Positions 10,319 through 64,000 of a stretch of DNA of 64,000 bases are shown here, one piece after another (position 1 is the first letter of the stretch; every line of letters begins with the position of its first letter). The translations under genes and the position numbers were made by a program. A model generated the notes under the pieces. It was not told the origin of the DNA. It saw nothing but the letters and a program-made list of their open reading frames with translations, and did not search any database. The DNA comes from Siphonodentalium dalli (taxonomy: Eukaryota; Mollusca; Scaphopoda; Gadilida; Siphonodentaliidae): NCBI GenBank assembly GCA_032622095.1, contig CP136069.1, forward strand, positions 184,625,122 to 184,689,121, in the 5' to 3' direction.

Positions 10319-10459
10319 CTATATAAATCACAGGGGACCATCTAGATGGCACCAAAGGGGTCTAACAGGGGTAACTTTTTACGAGAAAGATAATGGTGCG
10401 GGTTAGAAATTTCTGAAGTGACACCGTTGTTGTCAGGGGCAGAAAGGGAGAAGGGCAGA

Positions 10460-29873: not shown

Positions 29874-30417
29874 TCTCATATATATTTTGAAGACCTCTGT
29901 CTGTATGTTTGTTTGTTTGTCTGTCTGTCTGTCTGTCATTTATACAAATCTACGATTCTCGACCGATCGGGACGAAACTTGGTACGTATATGTAGTTTGA
30001 CCAGGCGGTGAACGTTGTCGTATTGGCGAGCCCGTGCGGCGCCCGCTTCGCGCATGCGCAGACGAGATCTCGGAAACGGGTGGAGCTATCGACTTGAAAT
30101 TTGCTATGTGAATGTATCTTGCCCCGGATACGAATTGTATCGGGTCGCCGAACCCGTGCGACGCCAGCTTCGCGCATGCGCAGACGAGATATCGGAAACG
30201 GGTGGAGCTATCGACTTGAAATTTGGTATGTGAATGTATCTTGCCCCGGATACGAATTGTATCGGGTCGCCGAACCCGTGCGACGCCAGCTTCGCACAAG
30301 CGCAGACCAGATCTCGGAAACGGGTAGAGCTATCGACTTGAAATTTGGTTTTTGAATAGCCCGGACAACAAAATTTGGTGTTTGAATAGCCCGGACAACG
30401 TCGGGCTCATCGGCTAG
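29874..30417 (+). mobile_element. Helitron-like unit A1 (first of array)
   Basis: Starts TCTCATATATATTTTGAAG directly after a host A. Then come a CTGT microsatellite, a unique block with GATTCTCGACCGATCGGGAC, about two and a half copies of the 122-bp core, and the hairpin AGCCCGGACAACGTCGGGCT (one bulged G, AAC loop), CATCGG and CTAG. A short internal duplication repeats the hairpin's first half (GAATAGCCCGGACAAC). The A|TC start, hairpin and CTAG end are the defining marks of Helitrons. No Rep/helicase, so non-autonomous. Confidence 0.85.
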
Positions 30418-31065
30418 TCTCATATATATTTTGAAGACCTCTGTCTGTATGTTTGTCTGTCTGTCTGTATGTTTGTCTGTATGTTTGTCATTTATACAAA
30501 TCTACGATTCTCGACAGATCGGGACCAAACTTGGTACGTGTGTGTAGTTTGACCAGGCGGTGGACGTTGTCGTATTGGCGAGCCCGTGCGGCGCCCGCCG
30601 AAATTTGGTATGTGAATGTATCTTGCCCCGGATACGAATTTTATCGGGTCGCCGGGCCCGTGCGACGCCAGCTTCGCGCATGCGCAGACGAGATCTCGGA
30701 AACGTGTGGAGCTATCGACTTGAAATTTGCTATGTGAATGTATCTTGCCCCGGATACGAATTTTATCGGGTCGCCGAGCCCGTGCGACGCCAGTGCAGCG
30801 CATGCGCAGACGAGATCTCGGAAACGGGTGGAGCTATCGACTTAAAATTTGCTATGTGAATGTATCTTGCCCCGGATACGAATTTTATCGGGTCGCCGAG
30901 TCCGTGCGCCGCCAGCTTCGCGCATGCGCAGACGAGATCTCGGAAACGGGTAGAGCTATCGACCTGAAATTTGGCATGCGCAGACCAGATCTCGGAAACG
31001 GGTGGAGCTATCGACTTGAAATTTGGTTTTTGAATAGCCCGGACAACGTCGGGCTCATCGGCTAG
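30418..31065 (+). mobile_element. Helitron-like unit A2
   Basis: 648 bp, TC start and CTAG end, joined to its neighbours without any intervening base. Four core copies, one of them truncated. The first core junction is rearranged (CCGCCGAAATTTGG at about 30,595). Confidence 0.85.
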
Positions 31066-32066: not shown

Positions 32067-32088
32067 TCTATAATATATTTTGAAGACC

Positions 32089-32133
<45 letters not shown>

Positions 32134-32656: not shown

Positions 32657-33296
32657 TCTATTATATATTTTGGAAGATCTGTGTGTCTGTCTGTGTGTCT
32701 GTGTGTTCGCGATGGACTCGAAAACGACCGAACCTATTTCGATGAAACTTGGTATGTGAGGGTACATTCGGACGTGAGGTGGCATGGGCCTGTTAATTTG
32801 CCCGTGCGCGTGACCTTGAACTTAAAATCGGGTCATTTCAAGGTCGAACGCCCGAGTATCACGGGATTTCGATGAAAATTAGTGTCTAGGGATACTTTCG
32901 TATGGGGAGTGTCGTAAGCCTATTCGTTTGCCCGTGCGGCGTGACATTGACCTTGAAATCGGGTCAATTTAAGGTCAAATCGCGAATTGTTATGGGATTT
33001 CGACGAAATTTGATTCATAGGGTTAATTTTGTCCACTGAGTGTTTTGGACGGATCGAGTCGTGACCCCGACCTGATATTGACCTTCAAAATGATCAATTC
33101 GAGGTCAAATCGGGTAAAACCGGATGGATTTCGACGGGTACTTTTGTCGGATACTTTTGTCCGGGCAGTGTTTGGACGGGTGAAAACGTTACCCCACCTC
33201 ACCTTGGCCTTCAAAATGGACAATTCAAGGTCAATCGGTCAATTCGCCGAAAAGCAGAGGGGAAACAGCCCGGACGAAGTCGGTTCCACCTGCTAG
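32657..33296 (+). mobile_element. Helitron-like unit B1
   Basis: 640 bp. Starts TCTATTATATATTTTGGAAG, then a (TG/CTGT) microsatellite, then a core unlike type A: TTTCGATGAAACTTGG, GACCTTGA and TCAAGGTC motifs, and GGACGGGT blocks. It ends CCCGGACGAAGTCGG-TTCCACCTG and CTAG, followed by a host T and a (TA)n run. It is the most diverged complete B unit and closes the first group. Confidence 0.85.
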
Positions 33297-34403
33297 TATA
33301 TATATATATATTTGGAAAGTGTGGAGGGCGCTGGCACAGGTCGGTTATCCGATTTCTTATGTAATTATTTCTATGGAACTAGCTAAATTTTGTTAGGTTG
33401 TGTCGGAAATTGACATAAAATATTGTCTTGAGCACAGACAAAGGATAATTATGTTGAAATTGCTAAAAAGCTAATTGAACTGCGTGTTAATCAAGGTCTG
33501 AGTCTAGATCGAACGAGCATATCTCTCAAACTGGGATTTTTCTTGTAGACAATAATAACCCGTTTGTCGAGAGGCTCGGTCAATTTAGTGTTTAATAATG
33601 CAAAGTTTTTTCTGAAAATGTTTGCGATTTCAACATTTCTACGATTGTAGATTAGAGAAATTTCGAGAAACACCTTTGTAGTCAATGTTAAGTCCGAACG
33701 GAAGATATGTTTTAAGTACGTCCATCCAATGATTTTCGCGTTCTAGGCGTATTGAATCGGTTTGGTCTTCGTAGGCTAGAATTGGTGTCTGTTCTATTGG
33801 CTGAAAGCTTATATAGAAGGTGAGAAAAACCTACCTCTTACCATCTATACATCAGTCCGTTCCAGCGTTGCACCTGACATCGCATATCAGAGTTACCATT
33901 CGTGATATTCACACATACATCATTGAGGGTCAGATTTGATGTAGTGTTAATGGCGACGTTTCGACTAATTTGATATAGTTTTATCAAGTGATAAACCTAT
34001 ATTAATTCGGTAAAGTCTCGTCAGAGTGTGAACCGATTTGTTAAATCAAGGAAATCAATGCTGGTTTGCGATATTGATTCTTTGAGTTTGATTGATTCAT
34101 CATGACTGTTCAAGATGTTCAAGAACACCCTAAACTCATCCAGACCATGAGTCCAAATGATAAATATCTCGTCCAAGAATCTATAATAGGCTAATGGTTG
34201 TTTGTCAGATTTGGCTAGGGCGCCTTTCTCCCACTCTGCAACAAAAATTGAGGCAAAATTAGGACTAAACTTCTTGCCCATACTGCAGCCGGAGACCTGT
34301 AAATAATATCGTCCATTAAATTCAAAGTCATTCCCTTTAAGAGAAAGTTCTAATAATTGAAGTAGTTCATCTCCAGGTCTATGAGGATATATATATATAT
34401 ATA
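33297..34403. mobile_element. Interruption of the array: (TA)n-flanked Penelope-like fragment
   Basis: About 1.1 kb between the CTAG of unit B1 and a 5'-truncated B unit, with TA runs on both edges (33,297-33,312 and 34,388-34,403). It contains the Penelope-like reverse transcriptase remnant described separately. Copied whole at 50,279-51,396. Confidence 0.8.
33491..34389 (-). pseudogene. Penelope-like element reverse transcriptase remnant (copy 1)
   Basis: Two coding blocks on the minus strand. The first (34,389-34,021) encodes the palm region: LLELSLKGNDFEFNG, a GKKFSPNFASIF block and YYRFLDEIFIIW, ending IDFLDLT. The second (33,809-33,491) encodes HWMDVLKTYLPFGLN and KNPSLRDMLVRSRL. These are hallmarks of Penelope-like reverse transcriptases. 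The two blocks are separated by about 210 bp of non-coding sequence where roughly 70 residues are missing. The catalytic motif reads F-L-D-E instead of [FY]-x-D-D (Glu codon at 34,168-34,170), and an 11-bp deletion near 33,657 breaks the second block. No endonuclease (GIY-YIG) domain is seen. Clearly dead. Confidence 0.8.
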
Positions 34404-34841
34404 CGTGACCTTGACCTTGACATCGGGATTTCGATGAAAATTAGTGTCTGGGGATACTTTCGTGTGGGGAGTGCCGTAAGCATGTTCGTTTGCCCGTGCG
34501 ACCTGACCTTGACCTTGAAATCGGGTCAATTCAATGTCAAATCGCGAATTTTTATGGGATTTCGACGAAATTTGATACATAGGGATACTTTTGTCCACTG
34601 GGTGTTTTTGACGGGTAAAATCGTGACCCCGACCTGACATTAACCTTCAAAATGATCAATTCAAGGTCAAATCGGGTAAAACCGGATGGATTTCGACGGG
34701 TACTTTTGTCCGGGCAGTGTTTTGGACGGGTCAAATCGTGACCCCACCTGACCTTCAAAGTGGACAATTCAAGGTCAAATCGCGCAATTCGCCAAAAAGC
34801 AGAGGGGAAACAGCCCGGACGAAGTCGGGTCCACCAGCTAG
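34404..34841 (+). mobile_element. Helitron-like unit B, 5'-truncated
   Basis: Lacks the 5' end and microsatellite. It starts CGTGACCTTGACCTTGACAT directly after the (TA)n run and has an internal deletion of about 35 bp just after that. The 3' hairpin and CTAG are intact. Confidence 0.85.
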
Positions 34842-35355: not shown

Positions 35356-35978
35356 TCTATTATATATTTTGGAAGATCTGTGTGTGTGTGTGTGTCTGTG
35401 TGTCTGTCTGTTCGCGATGGACTCGAAAACGACCGAACCGATTTCGATGAAACTTGGTACGTGGGGGTACTTTCGGCCGTGGAGTGGCATGGGCCTCTTA
35501 ATTTGCCCGTGCGACGTTACCTTGACCTTGACATCGGGTCATTTCAAGGTCAAACGCCCGAGTATCACGGGATTTCGATGAAAATTAGTGTCTGGGGATA
35601 CTTTCGTGTGGGGAGTGTCGTAAGCATGTTCGTTTGCCCGTGCGACGTGACCTTGAAATCGGGTCAATTCAATGTCAAATCGCGAATTTTTATGGGATTT
35701 CGACGAAATTTGATACATAGGGTTACTTTTGTCCACTGGGTGTTTGGACGGGTAAAATCGTGACCCCGACCTGACATTAACCTTCAAACCGATCAATTCA
35801 AGGTCAAATCGGGTAAAACCGGATGGATTTCGACGGATACTTTTGTCCGGGCAGTGTTTTGGACGGGTCAAATCGTGACCCCACCTGACCTTCAAAGTGG
35901 ACAATTCAAGGTCAAATCGCGCAATTCGCCGAAAGGCAGAGGGGAAACAGCCCGGACGAAGTCGGGTCCACCAGCTAG
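35356..35978 (+). mobile_element. Helitron-like unit B (e-type)
   Basis: 623 bp, ending CCCGGACGAAGTCGGG, TCCACCAG and CTAG. Same length and variants as the e position of the higher-order repeats that follow. Confidence 0.87.
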
Positions 35979-38895
35979 TCTCATATATATTTTGAAGACC
36001 TCTGTCTGTATGTATGTTTGTTTGTCTGTCTGTCTGTCATTAATACAAATTTACGATTCTTGACCGATCGGGACGAAACTTGGTACGTGAGTGTAGTTTG
36101 ACCAGGCGGTCGTCGTTGTCGTATTGGCGAGCCCGTGCGGCGCCCGCTTCGTGCATGCGCAGACGAGATCTCGGAAACGGGTGGAGCTATCGACTTGAAA
36201 TTTGCTATGTGAATGTATCTTGCCCCGGGTGCGAATTTTATCGGGTCGCCGAGCCCGTGCGACACCAGCTTCGCACATGCGCAGACGAGATCTCGGAAAC
36301 GGGTGGAGCTATCGACTTGAAATTTGGTATGTGAATGTATCTTGCCCCGGATACGAATTTTATCGGGTCGCCGAGCCCGTGCGACGCCAGCTTCGCGCAT
36401 GCGCAGACCAGATCTCGGAAACGGGTAGAGCGATCGACTTGAAATTTGGTTTTTGAATAGCCCGGATGAATAGCCCGGACAACGTCGGGCTCATCGGCTA
36501 GTCTCATATATATTTTGAAGACCGCTGTTTGTTTGTCTGTTTGTCTGTATGTTTGTCTGTCATTTATACAAATCTACGATTCTCGACCGATCGGAACGAT
36601 ACTTGGTACGTGTGTGTAGTTTGACCAGGCGGTCGACGCTGTCGTATTGGCGAGCCCGTGCGGCGCCCGCTTCGTGCATGCGCAGACGAGATCTCGGAAA
36701 CGGGTGGAGCTATCGACTTGAAATTTGCTATGTGAATGTATCTTGCCCCGGATACGAATTTTATCGGGTCGCCGAGCCCGTGCGACGCCAGTGCAGCGCA
36801 TGCGCAGACGAGATCTCGGAAACGGGTGGAGCTATCGACTTAAAATTTGCTATGTGAATGTATCTTGCCCCGGATGCGAATTTTATCGGGTCGCCGAGTC
36901 CGTGCGACGCCAGCTTCGCGCATGCGCAGACGAGATCTCGGAAACGGGTGGAGCTATCGACTTGAAATTTGCTATGTGAATGTATCTTGCTCCGGATACG
37001 AACTTTATCGGGTCGCCGAGCCCGTGCGATGTCAGCTTCGCGCATGCGCAGACCAGATCTCGGAAACGGGTAGAGCTATCGACTTGAAATTTGGTTTTTG
37101 AATAGCCCGGACAACGTCGGGCTCATCGGCTAGTCTATTATATATTTTGGAAGATCTGTGTGTGTGTGTGTGTCTGTGTGTCTGTCTGTTCGCGGTGGAC
37201 TCGAAAACGACCCAACCGATTTCGATGAAACTTGGTACGTGGGGGTACTTTCGGCCGTGGAGTGGCATGGGCCTCTTAATTTGCCCGTGCGACGTAACCT
37301 TGACCTTGACATCGGGTCATTTCAAGGTCAAACGCCCGAGTATCACGGGATTTCGATGAAAATTAGTGTCTGGGGACACTTTCGTGTGGGCAGTGTCGTA
37401 AGCATGTTCGTTTGCCCGTGCGACGTGACCTTGATCTTGAAATCGGGTCAATTCAATGTCAAATCGCGAATTTTTATGGGATTTCGACGAAATTTGATAC
37501 ATAGGGTTACTTTTGTCCACTGGGTGTTTTGGACGGGTAAAATCGTGACCCCGACCTGACATTAACCCTCAAAATGATCAATTCAAGGTCAAATCGGGTA
37601 AAACCGGATGGATTTCGACGGATACATTTGTCCGGGCAGTGTTTTGGACGGGTCAAATCGTGACCCCACCTGACCTTCAAAGTGGACAATTCAAGGTCAA
37701 ATCACGCAATTCGCCGAAAGGCAGAGGGGAAACAGCCCGGACGAAAAGGGTCCACCAGCTAGTCTCATATATATTTTGAAGACCGCTGTTTGTTTGTCTG
37801 TTTGTCTGTATGTTTGTCGGTCATTTTTACAAATCTACGATTCTCGACCGATCGGGACGATACTTGGTACGTGTGTGTAGTTTGACAAGGCGGTCGACGC
37901 CGTCGTATTGGCGAGCCCGTGGGGCGCCAGCTTCGCGCATGCGCAGACGAGATCTCGGAAACGGGTGGAGCTATCGACTTGAAATTTGCTATGTGAATGT
38001 ATCTTGCTCCGGACACGAACTTTATCGGGTCGCCGAGCCCGTGCGATGTCAGCTTCGCGCATGCGCAGACGAGATCTCGGAAACGGGTGGAGCTATCGAC
38101 TTGAAATTTGGTATGTGAATGTATCTTGCCCCGGATACGAATTTTATCGGGTCGCCGAGCCCGCCCGACCCAAGCTTCGCGCATGCGCAGACCAGATCTC
38201 GGAAACGGGTAGAGCTATCGAATTGAAATTTGGTTTTTGAATAGCCCGGACAACGTCGGGCTCATCGGCTAGTCTATTGAATATTTTGGATGATCTGTGT
38301 GTGTGTGTGTGTCTGTGTGTCTGTCTGTTCGCGATGGACTCGAAAACGACCGAACCGATTTCGATGAAACTTGGTACGTGGGGGTACTTTCGGCCGTGGA
38401 GTGGCATGGGCCTCTTAATTTGCCCGTGCGACGTTACCTTGACCTTGACATCGGGTCATTTCAAGGTCAAACGCCCGAGTATCACGGGATTTCGATGAAA
38501 ATTAGTGTCTGGGGATACTTTCGTGTGGGGAGTGTCGTAAGCATGTTCGTTTGCCCGTGCGACGTGACCTTGAAATCGGGTCAATTCAATGTCAAATCGC
38601 GAATTTTTATGGGATTTCGACGAAATTTGATACATAGGGTTACTTTTGTCCACTGGGTGTTTGGACGGGTAAAATCGTGACCCCGACCTGACATTAACCT
38701 TCAAACCGATCAATTCAAGGTCAAATCGGGTAAAACCGGATGGATTTCGACGGATACTTTTGTCCGGGCAGTGTTTTGGACGGGTCAAATCGTGACCCCA
38801 CCTGACCTTCAAAGTGGACAATTCAAGGTCAAATCGCGCAATTCGCCGAAAGGCAGAGGGGAAACAGCCCGGACGAAGTCGGGTCCACCAGCTAG
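35979..38895 (+). repeat. Higher-order repeat 1 (2,917 bp, A-A-B-A-B)
   Basis: Five Helitron-like units: a 35,979-36,501 (A, 523 bp, with a duplicated GAATAGCCCGGAT before the hairpin); b 36,502-37,133 (A, 632 bp); c 37,134-37,762 (B, 629 bp, with GACGAAAAGGGTCC in place of the usual hairpin); d 37,763-38,272 (A, 510 bp); e 38,273-38,895 (B, 623 bp). All junctions are CTAG|TC. Confidence 0.93.
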
Positions 38896-41812
38896 TCTCA
38901 TATATATTTTGAAGACCTCTGTCTGTATGTATGTTTGTTTGTCTGTCTGTCTGTCATTAATACAAATTTACGATTCTTGACCGATCGGGACGAAACTTGG
39001 TACGTGAGTGTAGTTTGACCAGGCGGTCGTCGTTGTCGTATTGGCGAGCCCGTGCGGCGCCCGCTTCGTGCATGCGCAGACGAGATCTCGGAAACGGGTG
39101 GAGCTATCGACTTGAAATTTGCTATGTGAATGTATCTTGCCCCGGGTGCGAATTTTATCGGGTCGCCGAGCCCGTGCGACACCAGCTTCGCACATGCGCA
39201 GACGAGATCTCGGAAACGGGTGGAGCTATCGACTTGAAATTTGGTATGTGAATGTATCTTGCCCCGGATACGAATTTTATCGGGTCGCCGAGCCCGTGCG
39301 ACGCCAGCTTCGCGCATGCGCAGACCAGATCTCGGAAACGGGTAGAGCGATCGACTTGAAATTTGGTTTTTGAATAGCCCGGATGAATAGCCCGGACAAC
39401 GTCGGGCTCATCGGCTAGTCTCATATATATTTTGAAGACCGCTGTTTGTTTGTCTGTTTGTCTGTATGTTTGTCTGTCATTTATACAAATCTACGATTCT
39501 CGACCGATCGGAACGATACTTGGTACGTGTGTGTAGTTTGACCAGGCGGTCGACGCTGTCGTATTGGCGAGCCCGTGCGGCGCCCGCTTCGTGCATGCGC
39601 AGACGAGATCTCGGAAACGGGTGGAGCTATCGACTTGAAATTTGCTATGTGAATGTATCTTGCCCCGGATACGAATTTTATCGGGTCGCCGAGCCCGTGC
39701 GACGCCAGTGCAGCGCATGCGCAGACGAGATCTCGGAAACGGGTGGAGCTATCGACTTAAAATTTGCTATGTGAATGTATCTTGCCCCGGATGCGAATTT
39801 TATCGGGTCGCCGAGTCCGTGCGACGCCAGCTTCGCGCATGCGCAGACGAGATCTCGGAAACGGGTGGAGCTATCGACTTGAAATTTGCTATGTGAATGT
39901 ATCTTGCTCCGGATACGAACTTTATCGGGTCGCCGAGCCCGTGCGATGTCAGCTTCGCGCATGCGCAGACCAGATCTCGGAAACGGGTAGAGCTATCGAC
40001 TTGAAATTTGGTTTTTGAATAGCCCGGACAACGTCGGGCTCATCGGCTAGTCTATTATATATTTTGGAAGATCTGTGTGTGTGTGTGTGTCTGTGTGTCT
40101 GTCTGTTCGCGGTGGACTCGAAAACGACCCAACCGATTTCGATGAAACTTGGTACGTGGGGGTACTTTCGGCCGTGGAGTGGCATGGGCCTCTTAATTTG
40201 CCCGTGCGACGTAACCTTGACCTTGACATCGGGTCATTTCAAGGTCAAACGCCCGAGTATCACGGGATTTCGATGAAAATTAGTGTCTGGGGACACTTTC
40301 GTGTGGGCAGTGTCGTAAGCATGTTCGTTTGCCCGTGCGACGTGACCTTGATCTTGAAATCGGGTCAATTCAATGTCAAATCGCGAATTTTTATGGGATT
40401 TCGACGAAATTTGATACATAGGGTTACTTTTGTCCACTGGGTGTTTTGGACGGGTAAAATCGTGACCCCGACCTGACATTAACCCTCAAAATGATCAATT
40501 CAAGGTCAAATCGGGTAAAACCGGATGGATTTCGACGGATACATTTGTCCGGGCAGTGTTTTGGACGGGTCAAATCGTGACCCCACCTGACCTTCAAAGT
40601 GGACAATTCAAGGTCAAATCACGCAATTCGCCGAAAGGCAGAGGGGAAACAGCCCGGACGAAAAGGGTCCACCAGCTAGTCTCATATATATTTTGAAGAC
40701 CGCTGTTTGTTTGTCTGTTTGTCTGTATGTTTGTCGGTCATTTTTACAAATCTACGATTCTCGACCGATCGGGACGATACTTGGTACGTGTGTGTAGTTT
40801 GACAAGGCGGTCGACGCCGTCGTATTGGCGAGCCCGTGGGGCGCCAGCTTCGCGCATGCGCAGACGAGATCTCGGAAACGGGTGGAGCTATCGACTTGAA
40901 ATTTGCTATGTGAATGTATCTTGCTCCGGACACGAACTTTATCGGGTCGCCGAGCCCGTGCGATGTCAGCTTCGCGCATGCGCAGACGAGATCTCGGAAA
41001 CGGGTGGAGCTATCGACTTGAAATTTGGTATGTGAATGTATCTTGCCCCGGATACGAATTTTATCGGGTCGCCGAGCCCGCCCGACCCAAGCTTCGCGCA
41101 TGCGCAGACCAGATCTCGGAAACGGGTAGAGCTATCGAATTGAAATTTGGTTTTTGAATAGCCCGGACAACGTCGGGCTCATCGGCTAGTCTATTGAATA
41201 TTTTGGATGATCTGTGTGTGTGTGTGTGTCTGTGTGTCTGTCTGTTCGCGATGGACTCGAAAACGACCGAACCGATTTCGATGAAACTTGGTACGTGGGG
41301 GTACTTTCGGCCGTGGAGTGGCATGGGCCTCTTAATTTGCCCGTGCGACGTTACCTTGACCTTGACATCGTGTCATTTCAAGGTCAAACGCCCGAATATC
41401 ACGGGATTTCGATGAAAATTAGTGCCTGGGGATACTTTCGTGTGGGGAGTGTCGTAAGCATGTTCGTTTGCCCGTGCGACGTGACCTTGAAATCGGGTCA
41501 ATTCAATGTCAAATCGCGAATTTTTATGGGATTTCGACGAAATTTGATACATAGGGTTACTTTTGTCCACTGGGTGTTTGGACGGGTAAAATCGTGACCC
41601 CGACCTGACATTAACCTTCAAACCGATCAATTCAAGGTCAAATCGGGTAAAACCGGATGGATTTCGACGGATACTTTTGTCCGGGCAGTGTTTTGGACGG
41701 GTCAAATCGTGACCCCACCTGACCTTCAAAGTGGACAATTCAAGGTCAAATCGCGCAATTCGCCGAAAGGCAGAGGGGAAACAGCCCGGACGAAGTCGGG
41801 TCCACCAGCTAG
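38896..41812 (+). repeat. Higher-order repeat 2
   Basis: 2,917 bp, nearly identical to repeat 1. Units: a 38,896-39,418; b 39,419-40,050; c 40,051-40,679; d 40,680-41,189; e 41,190-41,812. Unit e carries a few private changes (ATCGTGTCATTT, CCGAATATC, TAGTGCCTGG). Confidence 0.93.
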
Positions 41813-44607
41813 TCTCATATATATTTTGAAGACCTCTGTCTGTATGTATGTTTGTTTGTCTGTCTGTCTGTCATTAATACAAATTTACGATTCTTGACCG
41901 ATCGGGACGAAACTTGGTACGTGAGTGTAGTTTGACCAGGCGGTCGTCGTTGTCGTATTGGCGAGCCCGTGCGGCGCCCGCTTCGTGCATGCGCAGACGA
42001 GATCTCGGAAACGGGTGGAGCTATCGACTTGAAATTTGCTATGTGAATGTATCTTGCCCCGGATACGAATTTTATCGGGTCGCCGAGCCCGTGCGACGCC
42101 AGCTTCGCGCATGCGCAGACCAGATCTCGGAAACGGGTAGAGCGATCGACTTGAAATTTGGTTTTTGAATAGCCCGGATGAATAGCCCGGACAACGTCGG
42201 GCTCATCGGCTAGTCTCATATATATTTTGAAGACCGCTGTTTGTTTGTCTGTTTGTCTGTATGTTTGTCTGTCATTTATACAAATCTACGATTCTCGACC
42301 GATCGGGACGATACTTGGTACGTGTGTGTAGTTTGACCAGGCGGTCGACGCTGTCGTATTGGCGAGCCCGTGCGGCGCCCGCTTCGTGCATGCGCAGACG
42401 AGATCTCGGAAACGGGTGGAGCTATCGACTTGAAATTTGCTATCTGAATGTATCTTGCCCCGGATACGAATTTTATCGGGTCGCCGAGCCCGTGCGACGC
42501 CAGTGCAGCGCATGCGCAGACGAGATCTCGGAAACGGGTGGAGCTATCGACTTAAAATTTGCTATGTGAATGTATCTTGCCCCGGATACGAATTTTATCG
42601 GGTCGCCGAGTCCGTGCGACGCCAGCTTCGCGCATGCGCAGACGAGATCTCGGAAACGGGTGGAGCTATCGACTTGAAATTTGCTATGTGAATGTATCTT
42701 GCTCCGGATACGAACTTTATCGGGTCGCCGAGCCCGTGCGATGTCAGCTTCGCGCATGCGCAGACCAGATCTCGGAAACGGGTAGAGCTATCGACTTGAA
42801 ATTTGGTTTTTGAATAGCCCGGACAACGTCGGGCTCATCGGCTAGTCTATTATATATTTTGGAAGATCTGTGTGTGTGTGTGTGTCTGTGTGTCTGTCTG
42901 TTCGCGGTGGACTCGAAAACGACCCAACCGATTTCGATGAAACTTGGTACGTGGGGGTACTTTCGGCCGTGGAGTGGCATGGGCCTCTTAATTTGCCCGT
43001 GCGACGTAACCTTGACCTTGACATCGGGTCATTTCAAGGTCAAACGCCCGAGTATCACGGGATTTCGATGAAAATTAGTGTCTGGGGATACTTTCGTGTG
43101 GGGAGTGCCGTAAGCATGTTCGTTTGCCCGTGCGACCTGACCTTGACCTTGAAATCGGGTCAATTCAATGTCAAATCGCGAATTTTTATGGGATTTCGAC
43201 GAAATTTGATACATAGGGTTACTTTTGTCCACTGGGTGTTTTGGACGGGTAAAATCGTGACCCCGACCTGACATTAACCCTCAAAATGATCAATTCAAGG
43301 TCAAATCGGGTAAAACCGGATGGATTTCGACGGATACATTTGTCCGGGCAGTGTTTTGGACGGGTCAAATCGTGACCCCACCTGACCTTCAAAGTGGACA
43401 ATTCAAGGTCAAATCGCGCAATTCGCCGAAAGGCAGAGGGGAAACAGCCCGGACGAAAAGGGTCCACCAGCTAGTCTCATATATATTTTGAAGACCGCTG
43501 TTTGTTTGTCTGTTTGTCTGTATGTTTGTCTGTCATTTTTACAAATCTACGATTCTCGACCGATCGGGACGATACTTGGTACGTGTGTGTAGTTTGACAA
43601 GGCGGTCGACGCTGTCGTATTGGCGAGCCCGTGCGGCGCCAGCTTCGCGCATGCGCAGACGAGATCTCGGAAACGGGTGGAGCTATCGACTTGAAATTTG
43701 CTATGTGAATGTATCTTGCTCCGGACACGAACTTTATCGGGTCGCCGAGCCCGTGCGATGTCAGCTTCGCGCATGCGCAGACGAGATCTCGGAAACGGGT
43801 GGAGCTATCGACTTGAAATTTGGTATGTGAATGTATCTTGCCCCGGATACGAATTGTATCGGGTCGCCGAGCCCGCCCGACCCAAGCTTCGCGCATGCGC
43901 AGACCAGATCTCGGAAACGGGTAGAGCTATCGAATTGAAATTTGGTTTTTGAATAGCCCGGACAACGTCGGGCTCATCGGCTAGTCTATTATATATTTTG
44001 GAAGATCTGTGTGTGTGTGTGTGTCTGTGTGTGTGTCTGTTCGCGATGGACTCGAAAACGACCGAACCGATTTCGATGAAACTTGGTACGTGGGGGTACT
44101 TTCGGCCGTGGAGTGGCATGGGCCTCTTAATTTGCCCGTGCGACGTTACCTTGACCTTGACATCGGGTCATTTCAAGGTCAAACGCCCGAGTATCACGGG
44201 ATTTCGATGAAAATTAGTGTCTGGGGATACTTTCGTGTGGGGAGTGTCGTAAGCATGTTCGTTTGCCCGTGCGACGTGACCTTGAAATCGGGTCAATTCA
44301 ATGTCAAATCGCGAATTTTTATGGGATTTCGACGAAATTTGATACATAGGGTTACTTTTGTCCACTGGGTGTTTGGACGGGTAAAATCGTGACCCCGACC
44401 TGACATTAACCTTCAAACCGATCAATTCAAGGTCAAATCGGGTAAAACCGGATGGATTTCGACGGATACTTTTGTCCGGGCAGTGTTTTGGACGGGTCAA
44501 ATCGTGACCCCACCTGACCTTCAAAGTGGACAATTCAAGGTCAAATCGCGCAATTCGCCGAAAGGCAGAGGGGAAACAGCCCGGACGAAGTCGGGTCCAC
44601 CAGCTAG
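41813..44607 (+). repeat. Higher-order repeat 3, one core shorter
   Basis: 2,795 bp: exactly 122 bp shorter because unit a (41,813-42,213) has lost one core copy. Others: b 42,214-42,845; c 42,846-43,474; d 43,475-43,984; e 43,985-44,607. Confidence 0.93.
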
Positions 44608-49070: not shown

Positions 49071-49115
<45 letters not shown>

Positions 49116-52971: not shown

Positions 52972-55766
52972 TCTCATATATATTTTGAAGACCTCTGTCT
53001 GTATGTATGTTTGTTTGTCTGTCTGTCTGTCATTAATACAAATTTACGATTCTTGACCGATCGGGACGAAACTTGGTACGTGAGTGTAGTTTGACCAGGC
53101 GGTCGTCGTTGTCGTATTGGCGAGCCCGTGCGGCGCCCGCTTCGTGCATGCGCAGACGAGATCTCGGAAACGGGTGGAGCTATCGACTTGAAATTTGCTA
53201 TGTGAATGTATCTTGCCCCGGGTGCGAATTTTATCGGGTCGCCGAGCCCGTGCGACACCAGCTTCGCACATGCGCAGACGAGATCTCGGAAACGGGTGGA
53301 GCTATCGACTTGAAATTTGGTATGTGAATGTATCTTGCCCCGGATACGAATTTTATCGGGTCGCCGAGCCCGTGCGACGCCAGCTTCGCGCATGCGCAGA
53401 CCAGATCTCGGAAACGGGTAGAGCGATCGACTTGAAATTTGGTTTTTGAATAGCCCGGATGAATAGCCCGGACAACGTCGGGCTCATCGGCTAGTCTCAT
53501 ATATATTTTGAAGACCGCTGTTTGTTTGTCTGTTTGTCTGTATGTTTGTCTGTCATTTATACAAATCTACGATTCTCGACCGATCGGAACGATACTTGGT
53601 ACGTGTGTGTAGTTTGACCAGGCGGTCGACGCTGTCGTATTGGCGAGCCCGTGCGGCGCCCGCTTCGTGCATGCGCAGACGAGATCTCGGAAACGGGTGG
53701 AGCTATCGACTTAAAATTTGCTATGTGAATGTATCTTGCCCCGGATGCGAATTTTATCGGGTCGCCGAGTCCGTGCGACGCCAGCTTCGCGCATGCGCAG
53801 ACGAGATCTCGGAAACGGGTGGAGCTATCGACTTGAAATTTGCTATGTGAATGTATCTTGCTCCGGATACGAACTTTATCGGGTCGCCGAGCCCGTGCGA
53901 TGTCAGCTTCGCGCATGCGCAGACCAGATCTCGGAAACGGGTAGAGCTATCGACTTGAAATTTGGTTTTTGAATAGCCCGGACAACGTCGGGCTCATCGG
54001 CTAGTCTATTATATATTTTGGAAGATCTGTGTGTGTGTGTGTGTCTGTGTGTCTGTCTGTTCGCGGTGGACTCGAAAACGACCCAACCGATTTCGATGAA
54101 ACTTGGTACGTGGGGGTACTTTCGGCCGTGGAGTGGCATGGGCCTCTTAATTTGCCCGTGCGACGTAACCTTGACCTTGACATCGGGTCATTTCAAGGTC
54201 AAACGCCCGAGTATCACGGGATTTCGATGAAAATTAGTGTCTGGGGACACTTTCGTGTGGGCAGTGTCGTAAGCATGTTCGTTTGCCCGTGCGACGTGAC
54301 CTTGATCTTGAAATCGGGTCAATTCAATGTCAAATCGCGAATTTTTATGGGATTTCGACGAAATTTGATACATAGGGTTACTTTTGTCCACTGGGTGTTT
54401 TGGACGGGTAAAATCGTGACCCCGACCTGACATTAACCCTCAAAATGATCAATTCAAGGTCAAATCGGGTAAAACCGGATGGATTTCGACGGATACATTT
54501 GTCCGGGCAGTGTTTTGGACGGGTCAAATCGTGACCCCACCTGACCTTCAAAGTGGACAATTCAAGGTCAAATCACGCAATTCGCCGAAAGGCAGAGGGG
54601 AAACAGCCCGGACGAAAAGGGTCCACCAGCTAGTCTCATATATATTTTGAAGACCGCTGTTTGTTTGTCTGTTTGTCTGTATGTTTGTCGGTCATTTTTA
54701 CAAATCTACGATTCTCGACCGATCGGGACGATACTTGGTACGTGTGTGTAGTTTGACAAGGCGGTCGACGCCGTCGTATTGGCGAGCCCGTGGGGCGCCA
54801 GCTTCGCGCATGCGCAGACGAGATCTCGGAAACGGGTGGAGCTATCGACTTGAAATTTGCTATGTGAATGTATCTTGCTCCGGACACGAACTTTATCGGG
54901 TCGCCGAGCCCGTGCGATGTCAGCTTCGCGCATGCGCAGACGAGATCTCGGAAACGGGTGGAGCTATCGACTTGAAATTTGGTATGTGAATGTATCTTGC
55001 CCCGGATACGAATTTTATCGGGTCGCCGAGCCCGCCCGACCCAAGCTTCGCGCATGCGCAGACCAGATCTCGGAAACGGGTAGAGCTATCGAATTGAAAT
55101 TTGGTTTTTGAATAGCCCGGACAACGTCGGGCTCATCGGCTAGTCTATTGAATATTTTGGATGATCTGTGTGTGTGTGTGTGTCTGTGTGTCTGTCTGTT
55201 CGCGATGGACTCGAAAACGACCGAACCGATTTCGATGAAACTTGGTACGTGGGGGTACTTTCGGCCGTGGAGTGGCATGGGCCTCTTAATTTGCCCGTGC
55301 GACGTTACCTTGACCTTGACATCGGGTCATTTCAAGGTCAAACGCCCGAGTATCACGGGATTTCGATGAAAATTAGTGTCTGGGGATACTTTCGTGTGGG
55401 GAGTGTCGTAAGCATGTTCGTTTGCCCGTGCGACGTGACCTTGAAATCGGGTCAATTCAATGTCAAATCGCGAATTTTTATGGGATTTCGACGAAATTTG
55501 ATACATAGGGTTACTTTTGTCCACTGGGTGTTTGGACGGGTAAAATCGTGACCCCGACCTGACATTAACCTTCAAACCGATCAATTCAAGGTCAAATCGG
55601 GTAAAACCGGATGGATTTCGACGGATACTTTTGTCCGGGCAGTGTTTTGGACGGGTCAAATCGTGACCCCACCTGACCTTCAAAGTGGACAATTCAAGGT
55701 CAAATCGCGCAATTCGCCGAAAGGCAGAGGGGAAACAGCCCGGACGAAGTCGGGTCCACCAGCTAG
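52972..55766 (+). repeat. Higher-order repeat 1, second copy, one core shorter
   Basis: 2,795 bp. Units: a 52,972-53,494; b 53,495-54,004 (510 bp, one 122-bp core lost relative to 36,502-37,133); c 54,005-54,633; d 54,634-55,143; e 55,144-55,766. The loss is private to this copy and so is younger than the 16.9-kb duplication. Confidence 0.92.
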
Positions 55767-58683
55767 TCTCATATATATTTTGAAGACCTCTGTCTGTATG
55801 TATGTTTGTTTGTCTGTCTGTCTGTCATTAATACAAATTTACGATTCTTGACCGATCGGGACGAAACTTGGTACGTGAGTGTAGTTTGACCAGGCGGTCG
55901 TCGTTGTCGTATTGGCGAGCCCGTGCGGCGCCCGCTTCGTGCATGCGCAGACGAGATCTCGGAAACGGGTGGAGCTATCGACTTGAAATTTGCTATGTGA
56001 ATGTATCTTGCCCCGGGTGCGAATTTTATCGGGTCGCCGAGCCCGTGCGACACCAGCTTCGCACATGCGCAGACGAGATCTCGGAAACGGGTGGAGCTAT
56101 CGACTTGAAATTTGGTATGTGAATGTATCTTGCCCCGGATACGAATTTTATCGGGTCGCCGAGCCCGTGCGACGCCAGCTTCGCGCATGCGCAGACCAGA
56201 TCTCGGAAACGGGTAGAGCGATCGACTTGAAATTTGGTTTTTGAATAGCCCGGATGAATAGCCCGGACAACGTCGGGCTCATCGGCTAGTCTCATATATA
56301 TTTTGAAGACCGCTGTTTGTTTGTCTGTTTGTCTGTATGTTTGTCTGTCATTTATACAAATCTACGATTCTCGACCGATCGGAACGATACTTGGTACGTG
56401 TGTGTAGTTTGACCAGGCGGTCGACGCTGTCGTATTGGCGAGCCCGTGCGGCGCCCGCTTCGTGCATGCGCAGACGAGATCTCGGAAACGGGTGGAGCTA
56501 TCGACTTGAAATTTGCTATGTGAATGTATCTTGCCCCGGATACGAATTTTATCGGGTCGCCGAGCCCGTGCGACGCCAGTGCAGCGCATGCGCAGACGAG
56601 ATCTCGGAAACGGGTGGAGCTATCGACTTAAAATTTGCTATGTGAATGTATCTTGCCCCGGATGCGAATTTTATCGGGTCGCCGAGTCCGTGCGACGCCA
56701 GCTTCGCGCATGCGCAGACGAGATCTCGGAAACGGGTGGAGCTATCGACTTGAAATTTGCTATGTGAATGTATCTTGCTCCGGATACGAACTTTATCGGG
56801 TCGCCGAGCCCGTGCGATGTCAGCTTCGCGCATGCGCAGACCAGATCTCGGAAACGGGTAGAGCTATCGACTTGAAATTTGGTTTTTGAATAGCCCGGAC
56901 AACGTCGGGCTCATCGGCTAGTCTATTATATATTTTGGAAGATCTGTGTGTGTGTGTGTGTCTGTGTGTCTGTCTGTTCGCGGTGGACTCGAAAACGACC
57001 CAACCGATTTCGATGAAACTTGGTACGTGGGGGTACTTTCGGCCGTGGAGTGGCATGGGCCTCTTAATTTGCCCGTGCGACGTAACCTTGACCTTGACAT
57101 CGGGTCATTTCAAGGTCAAACGCCCGAGTATCACGGGATTTCGATGAAAATTAGTGTCTGGGGACACTTTCGTGTGGGCAGTGTCGTAAGCATGTTCGTT
57201 TGCCCGTGCGACGTGACCTTGATCTTGAAATCGGGTCAATTCAATGTCAAATCGCGAATTTTTATGGGATTTCGACGAAATTTGATACATAGGGTTACTT
57301 TTGTCCACTGGGTGTTTTGGACGGGTAAAATCGTGACCCCGACCTGACATTAACCCTCAAAATGATCAATTCAAGGTCAAATCGGGTAAAACCGGATGGA
57401 TTTCGACGGATACATTTGTCCGGGCAGTGTTTTGGACGGGTCAAATCGTGACCCCACCTGACCTTCAAAGTGGACAATTCAAGGTCAAATCACGCAATTC
57501 GCCGAAAGGCAGAGGGGAAACAGCCCGGACGAAAAGGGTCCACCAGCTAGTCTCATATATATTTTGAAGACCGCTGTTTGTTTGTCTGTTTGTCTGTATG
57601 TTTGTCGGTCATTTTTACAAATCTACGATTCTCGACCGATCGGGACGATACTTGGTACGTGTGTGTAGTTTGACAAGGCGGTCGACGCCGTCGTATTGGC
57701 GAGCCCGTGGGGCGCCAGCTTCGCGCATGCGCAGACGAGATCTCGGAAACGGGTGGAGCTATCGACTTGAAATTTGCTATGTGAATGTATCTTGCTCCGG
57801 ACACGAACTTTATCGGGTCGCCGAGCCCGTGCGATGTCAGCTTCGCGCATGCGCAGACGAGATCTCGGAAACGGGTGGAGCTATCGACTTGAAATTTGGT
57901 ATGTGAATGTATCTTGCCCCGGATACGAATTTTATCGGGTCGCCGAGCCCGCCCGACCCAAGCTTCGCGCATGCGCAGACCAGATCTCGGAAACGGGTAG
58001 AGCTATCGAATTGAAATTTGGTTTTTGAATAGCCCGGACAACGTCGGGCTCATCGGCTAGTCTATTGAATATTTTGGATGATCTGTGTGTGTGTGTGTGT
58101 CTGTGTGTCTGTCTGTTCGCGATGGACTCGAAAACGACCGAACCGATTTCGATGAAACTTGGTACGTGGGGGTACTTTCGGCCGTGGAGTGGCATGGGCC
58201 TCTTAATTTGCCCGTGCGACGTTACCTTGACCTTGACATCGTGTCATTTCAAGGTCAAACGCCCGAATATCACGGGATTTCGATGAAAATTAGTGCCTGG
58301 GGATACTTTCGTGTGGGGAGTGTCGTAAGCATGTTCGTTTGCCCGTGCGACGTGACCTTGAAATCGGGTCAATTCAATGTCAAATCGCGAATTTTTATGG
58401 GATTTCGACGAAATTTGATACATAGGGTTACTTTTGTCCACTGGGTGTTTGGACGGGTAAAATCGTGACCCCGACCTGACATTAACCTTCAAACCGATCA
58501 ATTCAAGGTCAAATCGGGTAAAACCGGATGGATTTCGACGGATACTTTTGTCCGGGCAGTGTTTTGGACGGGTCAAATCGTGACCCCACCTGACCTTCAA
58601 AGTGGACAATTCAAGGTCAAATCGCGCAATTCGCCGAAAGGCAGAGGGGAAACAGCCCGGACGAAGTCGGGTCCACCAGCTAG
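55767..58683 (+). repeat. Higher-order repeat 2, second copy
   Basis: 2,917 bp, matches 38,896-41,812 at offset 16,871. Units: a 55,767-56,289; b 56,290-56,921; c 56,922-57,550; d 57,551-58,060; e 58,061-58,683. It shares the private changes of unit e in repeat 2. Confidence 0.92.
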
Positions 58684-61478
58684 TCTCATATATATTTTGA
58701 AGACCTCTGTCTGTATGTATGTTTGTTTGTCTGTCTGTCTGTCATTAATACAAATTTACGATTCTTGACCGATCGGGACGAAACTTGGTACGTGAGTGTA
58801 GTTTGACCAGGCGGTCGTCGTTGTCGTATTGGCGAGCCCGTGCGGCGCCCGCTTCGTGCATGCGCAGACGAGATCTCGGAAACGGGTGGAGCTATCGACT
58901 TGAAATTTGCTATGTGAATGTATCTTGCCCCGGATACGAATTTTATCGGGTCGCCGAGCCCGTGCGACGCCAGCTTCGCGCATGCGCAGACCAGATCTCG
59001 GAAACGGGTAGAGCGATCGACTTGAAATTTGGTTTTTGAATAGCCCGGATGAATAGCCCGGACAACGTCGGGCTCATCGGCTAGTCTCATATATATTTTG
59101 AAGACCGCTGTTTGTTTGTCTGTTTGTCTGTATGTTTGTCTGTCATTTATACAAATCTACGATTCTCGACCGATCGGGACGATACTTGGTACGTGTGTGT
59201 AGTTTGACCAGGCGGTCGACGCTGTCGTATTGGCGAGCCCGTGCGGCGCCCGCTTCGTGCATGCGCAGACGAGATCTCGGAAACGGGTGGAGCTATCGAC
59301 TTGAAATTTGCTATCTGAATGTATCTTGCCCCGGATACGAATTTTATCGGGTCGCCGAGCCCGTGCGACGCCAGTGCAGCGCATGCGCAGACGAGATCTC
59401 GGAAACGGGTGGAGCTATCGACTTAAAATTTGCTATGTGAATGTATCTTGCCCCGGATACGAATTTTATCGGGTCGCCGAGTCCGTGCGACGCCAGCTTC
59501 GCGCATGCGCAGACGAGATCTCGGAAACGGGTGGAGCTATCGACTTGAAATTTGCTATGTGAATGTATCTTGCTCCGGATACGAACTTTATCGGGTCGCC
59601 GAGCCCGTGCGATGTCAGCTTCGCGCATGCGCAGACCAGATCTCGGAAACGGGTAGAGCTATCGACTTGAAATTTGGTTTTTGAATAGCCCGGACAACGT
59701 CGGGCTCATCGGCTAGTCTATTATATATTTTGGAAGATCTGTGTGTGTGTGTGTGTCTGTGTGTCTGTCTGTTCGCGGTGGACTCGAAAACGACCCAACC
59801 GATTTCGATGAAACTTGGTACGTGGGGGTACTTTCGGCCGTGGAGTGGCATGGGCCTCTTAATTTGCCCGTGCGACGTAACCTTGACCTTGACATCGGGT
59901 CATTTCAAGGTCAAACGCCCGAGTATCACGGGATTTCGATGAAAATTAGTGTCTGGGGATACTTTCGTGTGGGGAGTGCCGTAAGCATGTTCGTTTGCCC
60001 GTGCGACCTGACCTTGACCTTGAAATCGGGTCAATTCAATGTCAAATCGCGAATTTTTATGGGATTTCGACGAAATTTGATACATAGGGTTACTTTTGTC
60101 CACTGGGTGTTTTGGACGGGTAAAATCGTGACCCCGACCTGACATTAACCCTCAAAATGATCAATTCAAGGTCAAATCGGGTAAAACCGGATGGATTTCG
60201 ACGGATACATTTGTCCGGGCAGTGTTTTGGACGGGTCAAATCGTGACCCCACCTGACCTTCAAAGTGGACAATTCAAGGTCAAATCGCGCAATTCGCCGA
60301 AAGGCAGAGGGGAAACAGCCCGGACGAAAAGGGTCCACCAGCTAGTCTCATATATATTTTGAAGACCGCTGTTTGTTTGTCTGTTTGTCTGTATGTTTGT
60401 CTGTCATTTTTACAAATCTACGATTCTCGACCGATCGGGACGATACTTGGTACGTGTGTGTAGTTTGACAAGGCGGTCGACGCTGTCGTATTGGCGAGCC
60501 CGTGCGGCGCCAGCTTCGCGCATGCGCAGACGAGATCTCGGAAACGGGTGGAGCTATCGACTTGAAATTTGCTATGTGAATGTATCTTGCTCCGGATACG
60601 AACTTTATCGGGTCGCCGAGCCCGTGCGATGTCAGCTTCGCGCATGCGCAGACGAGATCTCGGAAACGGGTGGAGCTATCGACTTGAAATTTGGTATGTG
60701 AATGTATCTTGCCCCGGATACGAATTGTATCGGGTCGCCGAGCCCGCCCGACCCAAGCTTCGCGCATGCGCAGACCAGATCTCGGAAACGGGTAGAGCTA
60801 TCGAATTGAAATTTGGTTTTTGAATAGCCCGGACAACGTCGGGCTCATCGGCTAGTCTATTATATATTTTGGAAGATCTGTGTGTGTGTGTGTGTCTGTG
60901 TGTGTGTCTGTTCGCGATGGACTCGAAAACGACCGAACCGATTTCGATGAAACTTGGTACGTGGGGGTACTTTCGGCCGTGGAGTGGCATGGGCCTCTTA
61001 ATTTGCCCGTGCGACGTTACCTTGACCTTGACATCGGGTCATTTCAAGGTCAAACGCCCGAGTATCACGGGATTTCGATGAAAATTAGTGTCTGGGGATA
61101 CTTTCGTGTGGGGAGTGTCGTAAGCATGTTCGTTTGCCCGTGCGACGTGACCTTGAAATCGGGTCAATTCAATGTCAAATCGCGAATTTTTATGGGATTT
61201 CGACGAAATTTGATACATAGGGTTACTTTTGTCCACTGGGTGTTTGGACGGGTAAAATCGTGACCCCGACCTGACATTAACCTTCAAACCGATCAATTCA
61301 AGGTCAAATCGGGTAAAACCGGATGGATTTCGACGGATACTTTTGTCCGGGCAGTGTTTTGGACGGGTCAAATCGTGACCCCACCTGACCTTCAAAGTGG
61401 ACAATTCAAGGTCAAATCGCGCAATTCGCCGAAAGGCAGAGGGGAAACAGCCCGGACGAAGTCGGGTCCACCAGCTAG
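58684..61478 (+). repeat. Higher-order repeat 3, second copy
   Basis: 2,795 bp, matches 41,813-44,607 and shares its short unit a (58,684-59,084). Other units: b 59,085-59,716; c 59,717-60,345; d 60,346-60,855; e 60,856-61,478. Confidence 0.92.
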
Positions 61479-64000
61479 TCTCATATATATTTTGAAGACC
61501 TCTGTCTGTATGTATGTTTGTTTGTCTGTCTGTCTGTCATTAATACAAATTTACGATTCTTGACCGATCGGGACGAAACTTGGTATGTGAGTGTAGTTTG
61601 GCCAGGCGGTCGTCGTTGTCGTATTGGCGAGCCCGTGCGGCGCCCGCTTCGTGCATGCGCAGACGAGATCTCGGAAACGGGTGGAGCTATCGACTTGAAA
61701 TTTGCTATGTGAATGTATCTTGCCCCGGATGCGAATTTTATCGGGTCGCCGAGCCCGTGCGACACCAGCTTCGCACATGCGCAGACGAGATCTCGGAAAC
61801 TGGTGGAGCTATCGACTTGAAATTTGGTATGTGAATGTATCTTGCCCCGGATACGAATTTTATCGGGTCGCCGAGCCCGTGCGACGCCAGCTTCGCGCAT
61901 GCGCAGACCAGATCTCGGAAACGGGTAGAGCGATCGACTTGAAATTTGGTTTTTGAATAGCCCGGATGAATAGCCCGGACAACGTCGGGCTCATCGGCTA
62001 GTCTCATATATATTTTGAAGACCGCTGTTTGTTTGTCTGTTTGTCTGTATGTTTGTCTGTCATTTATACAAATCTACGATTCTCGACCGATCGGGACGAT
62101 ACTTGGTACGTGTGTGTAGTTTGACCAGGCGGTCGACGCTGTCGTATTGGCGAGCCCGTGCGGCTCCCGCTTCGTGCATGCGCAGACGAGATCTCGGAAA
62201 CGGGTGGGGCTATCGACTTGAAATTTGCTATGTGAATGTATCTTGCCCCGGATACGAATTTTATCGGGTCGCCGAGCCCGTGCGATGTCAGTGCAGCGCA
62301 TGCGCAGACGAGATCTCGGAAACGGGTGGAGCTATCGACTTAAAATTTGCTATGTGAATGTATCTTGCCCCGGATACGAATTTTATCGGGTCGCCGAGTC
62401 CGTGCGACGCCAGCTTCGCGCATGCGCAGACGAGATCTCGGAAACGGGTGGAGCTATCGACTTGAAATTTGCTATGTGAATGTATCTTGCTCCGGATACG
62501 AACTTTATCGGGTCGCCGAGCCCGTGCGATGTCAGCTTCGCGCATGCGCAGACCAGATCTCGGAAACGGGTAGAGCTATCGACTTGAAATTTGGTTTTTG
62601 AATAGCCCGGACAACGTCGGGCTCATCGGCTAGTCTATTATATATTTTGGAAGATCTGTGTGTGTGTGTGTGTCTGTGTGTCTGTCTGTTCGCGGTGGAC
62701 TCGAAAACGACCCAACCGATTTCGATGAAACTTGGTACGTGGGAGTACTTTCGGCCGTGGAGTGGCATGGGCCTCTTAATTTGCCCGTGCGACGTAACCT
62801 TGACCTTGACATCGGGTCATTTCAAGGTCAAACGCCCGAGTATCACGGTATTTCGATGAAAATTAGTGTCTGGGGATACTTTCGTGTGGGGAGTGCCGTA
62901 AGCATGTTCGTTTGCCCGTGCGACCTGACCTTGACCTTGAAATCGGGTCAATTCAATGTCAAATCGCGAATTTTTATGGGATTTCGACGAAATTTGATAC
63001 ATAGGGTTACTTTTGTCCACTGGGTGTTTTGGACGGGTAAAATCGTGACCCCGACCTGACATTAACCCTCAAAATGATCAATTCAAGGTCAAATCGGGTA
63101 AAACCGGATGGATTTCGACGGATACATTTGTCCGGGCAGTATTTTGGACGGGTCAAATCGTGACCCCACCTGACCTTCAAAGTGGACAATTCAAGGTCAA
63201 ATCGCGCAATTCGCCGAAAGGCAGAGGGGAAACAGCCCGGACGAAAAGGGTCCACCAGCTAGTCTCATATATATTTTGAAGACCGCTGTTTGTTTGTCTG
63301 TTTGTCTGTATGTTTGTCTGTCATTTTTACAAATCTACGATTCTCGACCGATCGGGACGATACTTGGTACGTGTGTGTAGTTTGACAAGGCGGTCGACGC
63401 TGTCGTATTGGCGAGCCCGTGCGGCGCCAATGCAGCGCATGCGCAGACGAGATCTCGGAAACGGGTGGAGCTATCGACTTGAAATTTGCTATGTGAATGT
63501 ATCTTGCTCCGGATACGAACTTTATCGGGTCGCCGAGCCCGTGCGATGTCAGCTTCGCGCATGCGCAGACGAGATCTCGGAAACGCGTGGAGCTATCGAC
63601 TTGAAATTTGGTATGTGAATGTATCTTGCCCCGGATACGAATTTTATCGGGTCGCCGAGCCCGCCCGACCCAAGCTTCGCGCATGCGCAGACCAGATCTC
63701 GGAAACGGGTAGAGCTATCGAATTGAAATTTGGTTTTTGAATAGCCCGGACAACGTCGGGCTCATCGGCTAGTCTATTATATATTTTGGAAGATCTGTGT
63801 GTGTGTGTGTGTCTGTGTGTCTGTCTGTTCGCGATGGACTCGAAAACGACCGAACCGATTTCGATGAAACTTGGTACGTGGGGGTACTTTCGGCCGTGGA
63901 GTGGCATGGGCCTCTTAATTTGCCCGTGCGACGTTACCTTGACCTTGACATCGTGTCATTTCAAGGTCAAACGCCCGAATATCACGGGATTTCGATGAAA
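61479..64000 (+). repeat. Higher-order repeat 4, second copy, cut by window end
   Basis: Units: a 61,479-62,001; b 62,002-62,633; c 62,634-63,262; d 63,263-63,772; e 63,773 to the window end. Matches 44,608-47,129, so the duplicated block is at least 15.7 kb long and continues beyond the window. Confidence 0.92.

Follow-up and report, generated by a model that had tools for sequence, protein, structure and literature searches.

Helitrons joined head to tail, with the 3′ CTAG of one element abutting the 5′ TC of the next, have been described in several genomes, and the choice between a concatemeric origin and consecutive insertion has, in the literature available to us, been argued from few cases. 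The tandem clusters of Myotis and Bombyx and the centromeric arrays of plants are ascribed, in the sections of those reports that deal with them, to missed termination or to circular intermediates (PMC4067079, PMC5876387, PMC5148889). In maize, Du et al. (2008) described a CTAG-TC joint between two different elements, and consecutive insertion at a host A and the resident's 5′ T is one of the two possibilities offered where that pair is discussed (PMC2267711). The bat elements Helibat and Helraiser, as described in the portions of the report at hand, begin with TC, end in CTAG, insert between A and T in AT-rich targets, encode a Rep/helicase, and form circles with a CTAG-TC junction (PMC4778049). 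The array considered here, which is built from two types of nonautonomous Helitron that we call A and B, lies in a 64,000-bp stretch (the window) of the genome of the scaphopod Siphonodentalium dalli, at positions 184,625,122-184,689,121 of contig C9 (GenBank CP136069.1) in an assembly of 2.23 Gb and nine contigs. It recalls all of these systems and departs from each. Neighboring units here are mostly nonidentical and belong to several families; whereas the maize case is one pair whose order is left unsettled, here there are many joints, and paralogues carrying B only establish the order at one host repeat; and unlike the bat Helitrons, thousands of nonautonomous copies are stacked on often unrelated Helitrons and have formed a higher-order satellite.

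We think that the array probably originated by serial insertion of A and B units at the 5′ edges of resident elements, followed by amplification as a satellite. In the first stage, a mobile copy would enter between the host A and the TC with which a resident Helitron begins. Since an A-T target is present at the very 5′ edge of the resident, insertion there would leave the host A, the new element (TC to CTAG), the old element (TC to CTAG), and the host T in unbroken succession, with a seamless CTAG-TC joint, and the 5′ edge so created could be used again in the same way. In the second stage, unequal exchange or a similar recombination process would generate the 2.9-kb five-unit repeat and the 16.9-kb super-repeat; we suspect such amplification because of the periodicity and the 99.9% identity of the repeated blocks. 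This genome has approximately twelve thousand exact joints, partners from several families, paralogues that carry B only, and a candidate for the autonomous element, so that the question of concatemers versus consecutive insertion can be addressed directly in it.

The array units are nonautonomous Helitrons. In the window, 35 unit starts are of type A (including four TCTATA variants) and 20 are of type B; a CTAG stands directly before every start but the first, which follows a host A at 29,874, as the preliminary description of this DNA had noted. That description was also correct about the head-to-tail arrangement, but its estimate of about 45 units was too low. A strict joint motif has 50 matches in the array and none in 200 mononucleotide shuffles, and start-to-start distances fall between 401 and 648 bp in 53 of the 55 cases, the two outliers being 2,185 and 2,196 bp. 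Genome-wide, A starts without a preceding G number 7,806 (a reversed-pattern control gave 0); among the first 100 listed, the base before the start is A in 97, T in 2, and C in 1. There are 4,034 ends at which the second base past the terminus is not C, and T follows directly in 98 of the first 100 listed. The solo copies with A-TC and CTAG-T flanks that the preliminary description called for are thus present, and the 54 CTAG-TC joints and the first start of the array, together with these genome-wide starts and ends, display the 5′ TC and 3′ CTRR termini of Helitrons. An empty site, also anticipated there, was found for one solo A copy, which lies inside the 39-kb element that interrupts the array. 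When the two flanks of this copy were joined and searched for, 278 candidates were returned, 40 of which were scored: the site was uninterrupted in 31 and split in 9, and in 8 of those 9 the halves lie 523-787 bp apart. Three uninterrupted copies, when aligned, read TATAAACTAA followed directly by TTAAT, which indicates that the solo copy inserted between A and T with no target-site duplication, in agreement with the listed flanks.

Stacks of this kind are not confined to the window. Exact joints of GCTAG with an A start number 7,756 in the genome, and exact head-to-tail joints of A and B types number 12,216. When 30 A starts were taken in genome order along contig C1 and read by eye, 20 (representing 18 distinct places, with L043 judged from its partner's start only) belonged to multiunit stacks, 8 were solo (two of these, L030 and L032, have common flanks), and 2 were ambiguous. 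These stacks bear on the strongest alternative, rolling-circle read-through, in which the 3′ end is missed and one element, or a run of neighboring elements, enters at once as a concatemer. Read-through has been proposed for the tandem Helitrons of bat and silkworm in the passages that treat them (PMC4067079, PMC5876387); transposon circles, as the available account of Helraiser describes, are closed by CTAG-TC joints as well (PMC4778049); and near-identical neighbors do occur in places (units 2-5 of locus L008 and units 2-3 of L033). One-step insertion of a concatemer, however, would make neighbors alike, and for the most part neighbors resemble one another no more than distant copies do: allele sharing over 12 informative columns was 0.017 for 21 adjacent A pairs and -0.025 for pairs from different loci, a result that counts against concatemers. 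(This comparison leaves out L003, L004, L006, L020, and L022, which overlap other loci, and the pairs of L007 and of units 2-3 of L017, which do not abut.) Neighboring units in the fetched stacks are also of unequal length, and the downstream partners in 29 fetched joints between an A end and a B start fall into five families (L017 not counted), an A start being recognizable upstream in 22 of the 29. A host repeat carrying B alone and the same repeat carrying A plus B also both exist, as described below. We regard read-through as an unlikely source of the array, although it has more to recommend it than any other alternative.

The order of insertion can be read at one host repeat. At locus L006 the host flank is followed by a B-type start; at L045 and L042 the same flank is followed by an A unit, CTAG, and the same type of B. 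The existence of both states argues that B was inserted first and that A then entered the A-T site made with the 5′ T of B. This observation is also difficult to accommodate in the second alternative, composite transposition, by which a few founder A-B pairs became mobile as units through a bypassed inner 3′ end and gave rise, by being copied, to the dispersed stacks; under that scheme the host flank of L045 and L042 should not be the flank of B-only copies. Composite transposition would account for the A-before-B order if the 5′ ends of A alone were active, and there are indications that some pairs did travel together. Loci L073 and L074 have a common flank, differ by 1.3-1.4% in both parts, and look like one duplicated locus. 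A first pass, with microsatellites kept, spoke for independent movement, the divergence of B exceeding that of A in 146 of 156 within-family pairs, but this excess shrank once microsatellites were removed (medians 0.096 versus 0.130 and 0.066 versus 0.161; 28 of 45 and 17 of 21 pairs), so that some A-B pairs may indeed have moved together. This stricter comparison left out the 8 of 29 loci that lack a part, and 17 of the remaining 21 belong to two B families. In one of these the A and B distances showed a correlation (Mantel r 0.37, p 0.067); in the other (r -0.39, p 0.88) and overall there was no positive correlation (one of the overall comparisons omitted L020 and one extended-array pair). 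Given, in addition, the several unrelated B families found downstream of A units, we consider it improbable that founder pairs produced the stacks, slightly more so than read-through.

Serial insertion at resident edges is also favored by the precision of the joints. For the dispersed B family represented at L006, L045, and L042, we found 637 exact starts without a preceding G and 507 matches with GCTAG just upstream; in the first 100 listed with GCTAG upstream, the joint is exact in 66 and variant in 34, and none represents an insertion at the three covered internal A-T sites of B. Similarly, the exact internal-site form for A starts was absent, by eye, from the first 100 listed of 159 nonstandard matches, as compared with 7,756 standard joints. 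Over a hundred million A-T sites are to be expected, from base composition, in so large a genome, and hits at the exact resident edge are therefore far more common than a random choice among such sites would give. That insertion occurs at the exact edge, and not at neighboring A-T sites, suggests that the transposase recognizes the resident 5′ terminus, and presumably nicks it.

We can extend this idea, more tentatively, to a proposal that could fall either way: the resident 5′ terminus may act as a sequence-specific, self-renewing landing pad, at which Rep would nick between A and TC and join the incoming CTAG, in what would amount to an intermolecular version of circle closure. Stacks would then grow 5′-ward, unit by unit and across unrelated families that have a common terminal motif, and would seed satellites. 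What has been reported for Helraiser fits a resident end that is bound and nicked, a step that is itself conjectural here: in the experiments described, the top strand of single-stranded left-end substrates is cleaved at the boundary of flank and TC, and targets show an AT-rich preference that is strongest on the 3′ side (PMC4778049). In the portions of the literature that we searched, no preference of Helitrons for resident ends was described. If resident ends are hot targets, they would reveal both an insertion preference of Helitrons and a way for transposons to become satellites with no need for a concatemer.

A number of observations weigh against serial insertion or weaken the evidence for it. 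The totals of joints are inflated by satellite amplification. A-A neighbors show no age polarity, the 5′ unit being less diverged in 11 pairs, more diverged in 9, and tied in 1. All 40 copies scored in the search for host plus B were uninterrupted, but since they were the top-scoring among 3,260 candidates, they give no frequency; the L006 boundary, moreover, contains one extra T. At 57 loci (the first 100 listed of the 12,216 joints, less a cluster of 19 rows at C1:13.74-13.79 Mb), a CATCGG-type end precedes a B-type start 35 times and a CACC(A/T)G end precedes an A start once, and this count of orders is biased: CACC(A/T)G upstream ends are rare (found in 6 of the 81 retained rows, and in only 1 row before an A start), A starts make up 32 of the 69 rows with CATCGG ends, and CATCGG ends are found in other families as well, among them the autonomous element and the B of L045. 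Of the 100 listed nonstandard A rows, 17 (counted by eye) read GCTAG followed by TATATATATATTTTG and could be internal insertions into longer TA runs. Cleavage of the Helraiser left end also takes place on the bottom strand, at an AT inside the element, according to the part of the report that concerns cleavage (PMC4778049). With regard to the flanks, the solo copy for which an empty site was found has CTA(T) in place of a terminal CTAG; 3 of the 30 fetched starts (L021, L022, and L026) are preceded by GGCTA, which looks like a joint minus its G, so their A is probably not of host origin; and a near-empty site of the autonomous copy, recovered in an empty-site search among the fetched loci, differs by 8 bp. 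Finally, four array ends (28-34 nt) folded no better than shuffles (z 0.04, -0.30, -0.06, and 0.82), and the hairpin stem is damaged in the 629-bp B units. The weak folding and the damaged hairpin mean that the units now in the array need not be mobile.

The periodicity that we ascribe to the second stage, satellite amplification, is visible in the window itself, where five units in the order A-A-B-A-B form a 2,917-bp period within a super-repeat of 16.9 kb (Table 1). The array extends past the window, with 13 further starts up to 71,448, a 39.2-kb inserted element, and then 8 further starts, and it terminates at 116,689 (window-extended coordinates) with CTAG followed by T; the satellite of more than 34 kb claimed in the preliminary description, which offered no mode of origin for it, is accordingly larger than the window could reveal. 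Two remaining alternatives can be weighed here. Duplicated blocks introduced by faulty assembly could inflate the array, and the 10.4-kb block is indeed repeated with 10 mismatches only, but the adjoining parts of the super-repeat differ by 2.5%, an inserted element flanked by a 6-bp target duplication breaks the array, and comparable stacks are found at many other locations, all of which makes such an artefact very improbable. That this is an ordinary satellite, with monomers spread by recombination and transposon-like ends that are incidental, would suit the higher-order periodicity and the 99.9% identical blocks, but is scarcely credible in view of the thousands of dispersed copies with A-TC and CTAG-T flanks, the empty site, and the matching ends of an autonomous Rep/helicase element.

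Table 1. Coordinates of the array and associated features in the window (position 1 is the first nucleotide of the 64,000-bp stretch)
Feature	Position	Strand	Basis or remark
Head-to-tail array of nonautonomous Helitrons (part in window)	29874..64000	+	55 starts, 54 after CTAG
First unit (type A): TC start after host A, then TCTG microsatellite, core repeats of ~122 bp, hairpin-like end, and CTAG	29874..30417	+	
Type B unit at 3′ edge of first sub-array: CTAG, then T (TATATA run)	32657..33296	+	
Non-Helitron segment within array	33297..34400	+	copy at 50,279-51,393, 99%
Typical B unit, with TCTATTATATATTTTGG start and CACCAGCTAG end, TG/TCTG microsatellite, and a core not related to the A core	35356..35978	+	
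Five-unit higher-order repeat of 2,917 bp: A(523) A(632) B(629) A(510) B(623)	35979..38895	+	unit spacing, 2,917-bp offsets
10.4-kb block, copy 1	36773..47129	+	99.9% identity to copy 2, offset 16,871
10.4-kb block, copy 2	53644..64000	+	99.9% identity to copy 1
Old degenerate head-to-tail pair outside array	4566..5450	-	A-TC start 5,450, CTAG-T junction 5,068/5,067, CTAC-T end 4,566; boundaries by eye

The identity of the likely transposase source comes from a search of the genome with the Helitron_like_N profile, which gave 457 candidates; 150 of these were scored and yielded 151 matches. One match adjoins an A start on C1 and belongs to an element, L053, that lies on the minus strand, is 8,675 bp long, starts with TCTCATATATATTTTGAAGACC after a host A, and ends with CCCGGACAACGTCGGGCACATCGGCTAG before a T. 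It has an open frame of 1,614 amino acids with matches to Helitron_like_N (9e-56) and PIF1 helicase (5e-68). Its first 311-349 bp are 82-88% identical to array units (70% in one unit), and its last 33 bp are one base off an A end. The A units thus have a Rep/helicase partner with the same ends, which the preliminary description had proposed to look for, and a Helitron of this type is the likely source of their transposase; the similarity of the ends suggests that the same source may have served the B units. Relatives at 96-98% identity, some of them open, are found elsewhere (29 of 1,732 candidates scored). At six other Rep loci (L047-L052, 3.5 kb each), the short flanking sequence contained no ends that matched. 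The cluster near the autonomous copy at C1:13.74-13.79 Mb contains 18 listed joints of a CATCGG end to a B-type start, all in one orientation, and many of its A starts follow A rather than CTAG. A third type of Helitron-like end, GCCGCCAGTGGCGGGCTAACCTGCTAG followed by TCTTCTCTTCTATATATTTTGAGAACTCC, is seen at L053 and at L018. There is also a second class of Helitron_like_N genes (C8:4875782, C8:82475387, and others), with open frames of about 2,200-2,860 amino acids, that is possibly of Helentron type.

The layout of the units prompts a comparison with a different group. The bivalve elements Cg_HINE and Pearl, and DINE-1, have, in the descriptions available, a GTCY-type tetranucleotide microsatellite, satellite-like core repeats, and a palindrome at the 3′ end (PMC7492417), and the resemblance to DINE-1 and pearl-type elements noted in the preliminary description is sound as regards this arrangement. 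We considered membership in the Helentron/HINE class on account of the combined microsatellite and core and rejected it. Unlike those elements, the partner has a Helitron-type Rep: its motif 2, IEWQKRGLPHSH, has L between G and P, and L in the Rep motif denotes a Helitron and not a Helentron, according to the pertinent section of PMC4067079. The S of the Helentron-type motif is absent from this Rep, and a Pfam scan of the partner gave no endonuclease domain. Insertion sites in the listed rows are A-T and not TT or T-rich, and subterminal inverted repeats (at least 11 nt, with at most 1 mismatch, first 40 versus last 90 nt) were found in none of the four elements compared.

The two families differ in their cores. 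Type A starts with TCTCATATATATTTTG and type B with TCTATTATATATTTTGG. An A unit consists of a TCTCATATATATTTTGAAGACC start, a TCTG-type microsatellite, core repeats of about 122 bp, and an end in CATCGGCTAG; a B unit has a TCTATTATATATTTTGGAAGATC start, a core other than that of A, and an end in CACC(A/T)GCTAG. Comparison with an old B-like copy at 4.6-5.1 kb bears out the distinction between A and B cores made in the preliminary description: B is similar to this copy over most of its length, and A is similar in the first ~54 bases only. At the 3′ end, AGCCCGGACAACGTCGGGCT stands ten bases from the terminus by eye, and a hairpin ~11 bp from the end is a canonical Helitron feature. The bulged-G hairpin earlier assigned to every unit can be discerned by eye; the folding results and the damaged stems of the 629-bp B units are given above. 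The CTAG at 33,296 is followed by T, as had been stated; since this T lies in a TATATA run, its origin from the host is uncertain. The same junction is found again at 50,278. The non-Helitron segment that follows the CTAG at 33,296 includes, on the minus strand at 34,021-34,437, a fragment of an open reading frame (ORF) with a subthreshold reverse-transcriptase match (E 0.028). By eye, this fragment resembles Penelope-like enzymes.

The element that interrupts the array (C9:184696570-184735795, or 71,449-110,674 in extended coordinates) is 39.2 kb long and lies within a B unit. It has 6.6-kb inverted terminal repeats (99.955% identity) and a 6-bp target duplication, GTTCGC. Its inner stretch is present elsewhere in the genome (40 copies scored from 278 candidates), and three 10-kb loci scanned for this family contained no ORF of at least 150 amino acids. 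Elsewhere in the window, a 56-bp minisatellite of 16 copies occupies 706-1599, and a 2.9-kb tandem duplication with 99.5% identity occupies 8275-14148. Nine window ORFs compared with Pfam gave one match, to Bles03 (PF08939; E 0.01), in a 501-amino-acid open frame that contains a 432-bp repeat present in 3.8 copies at 18523-20219.

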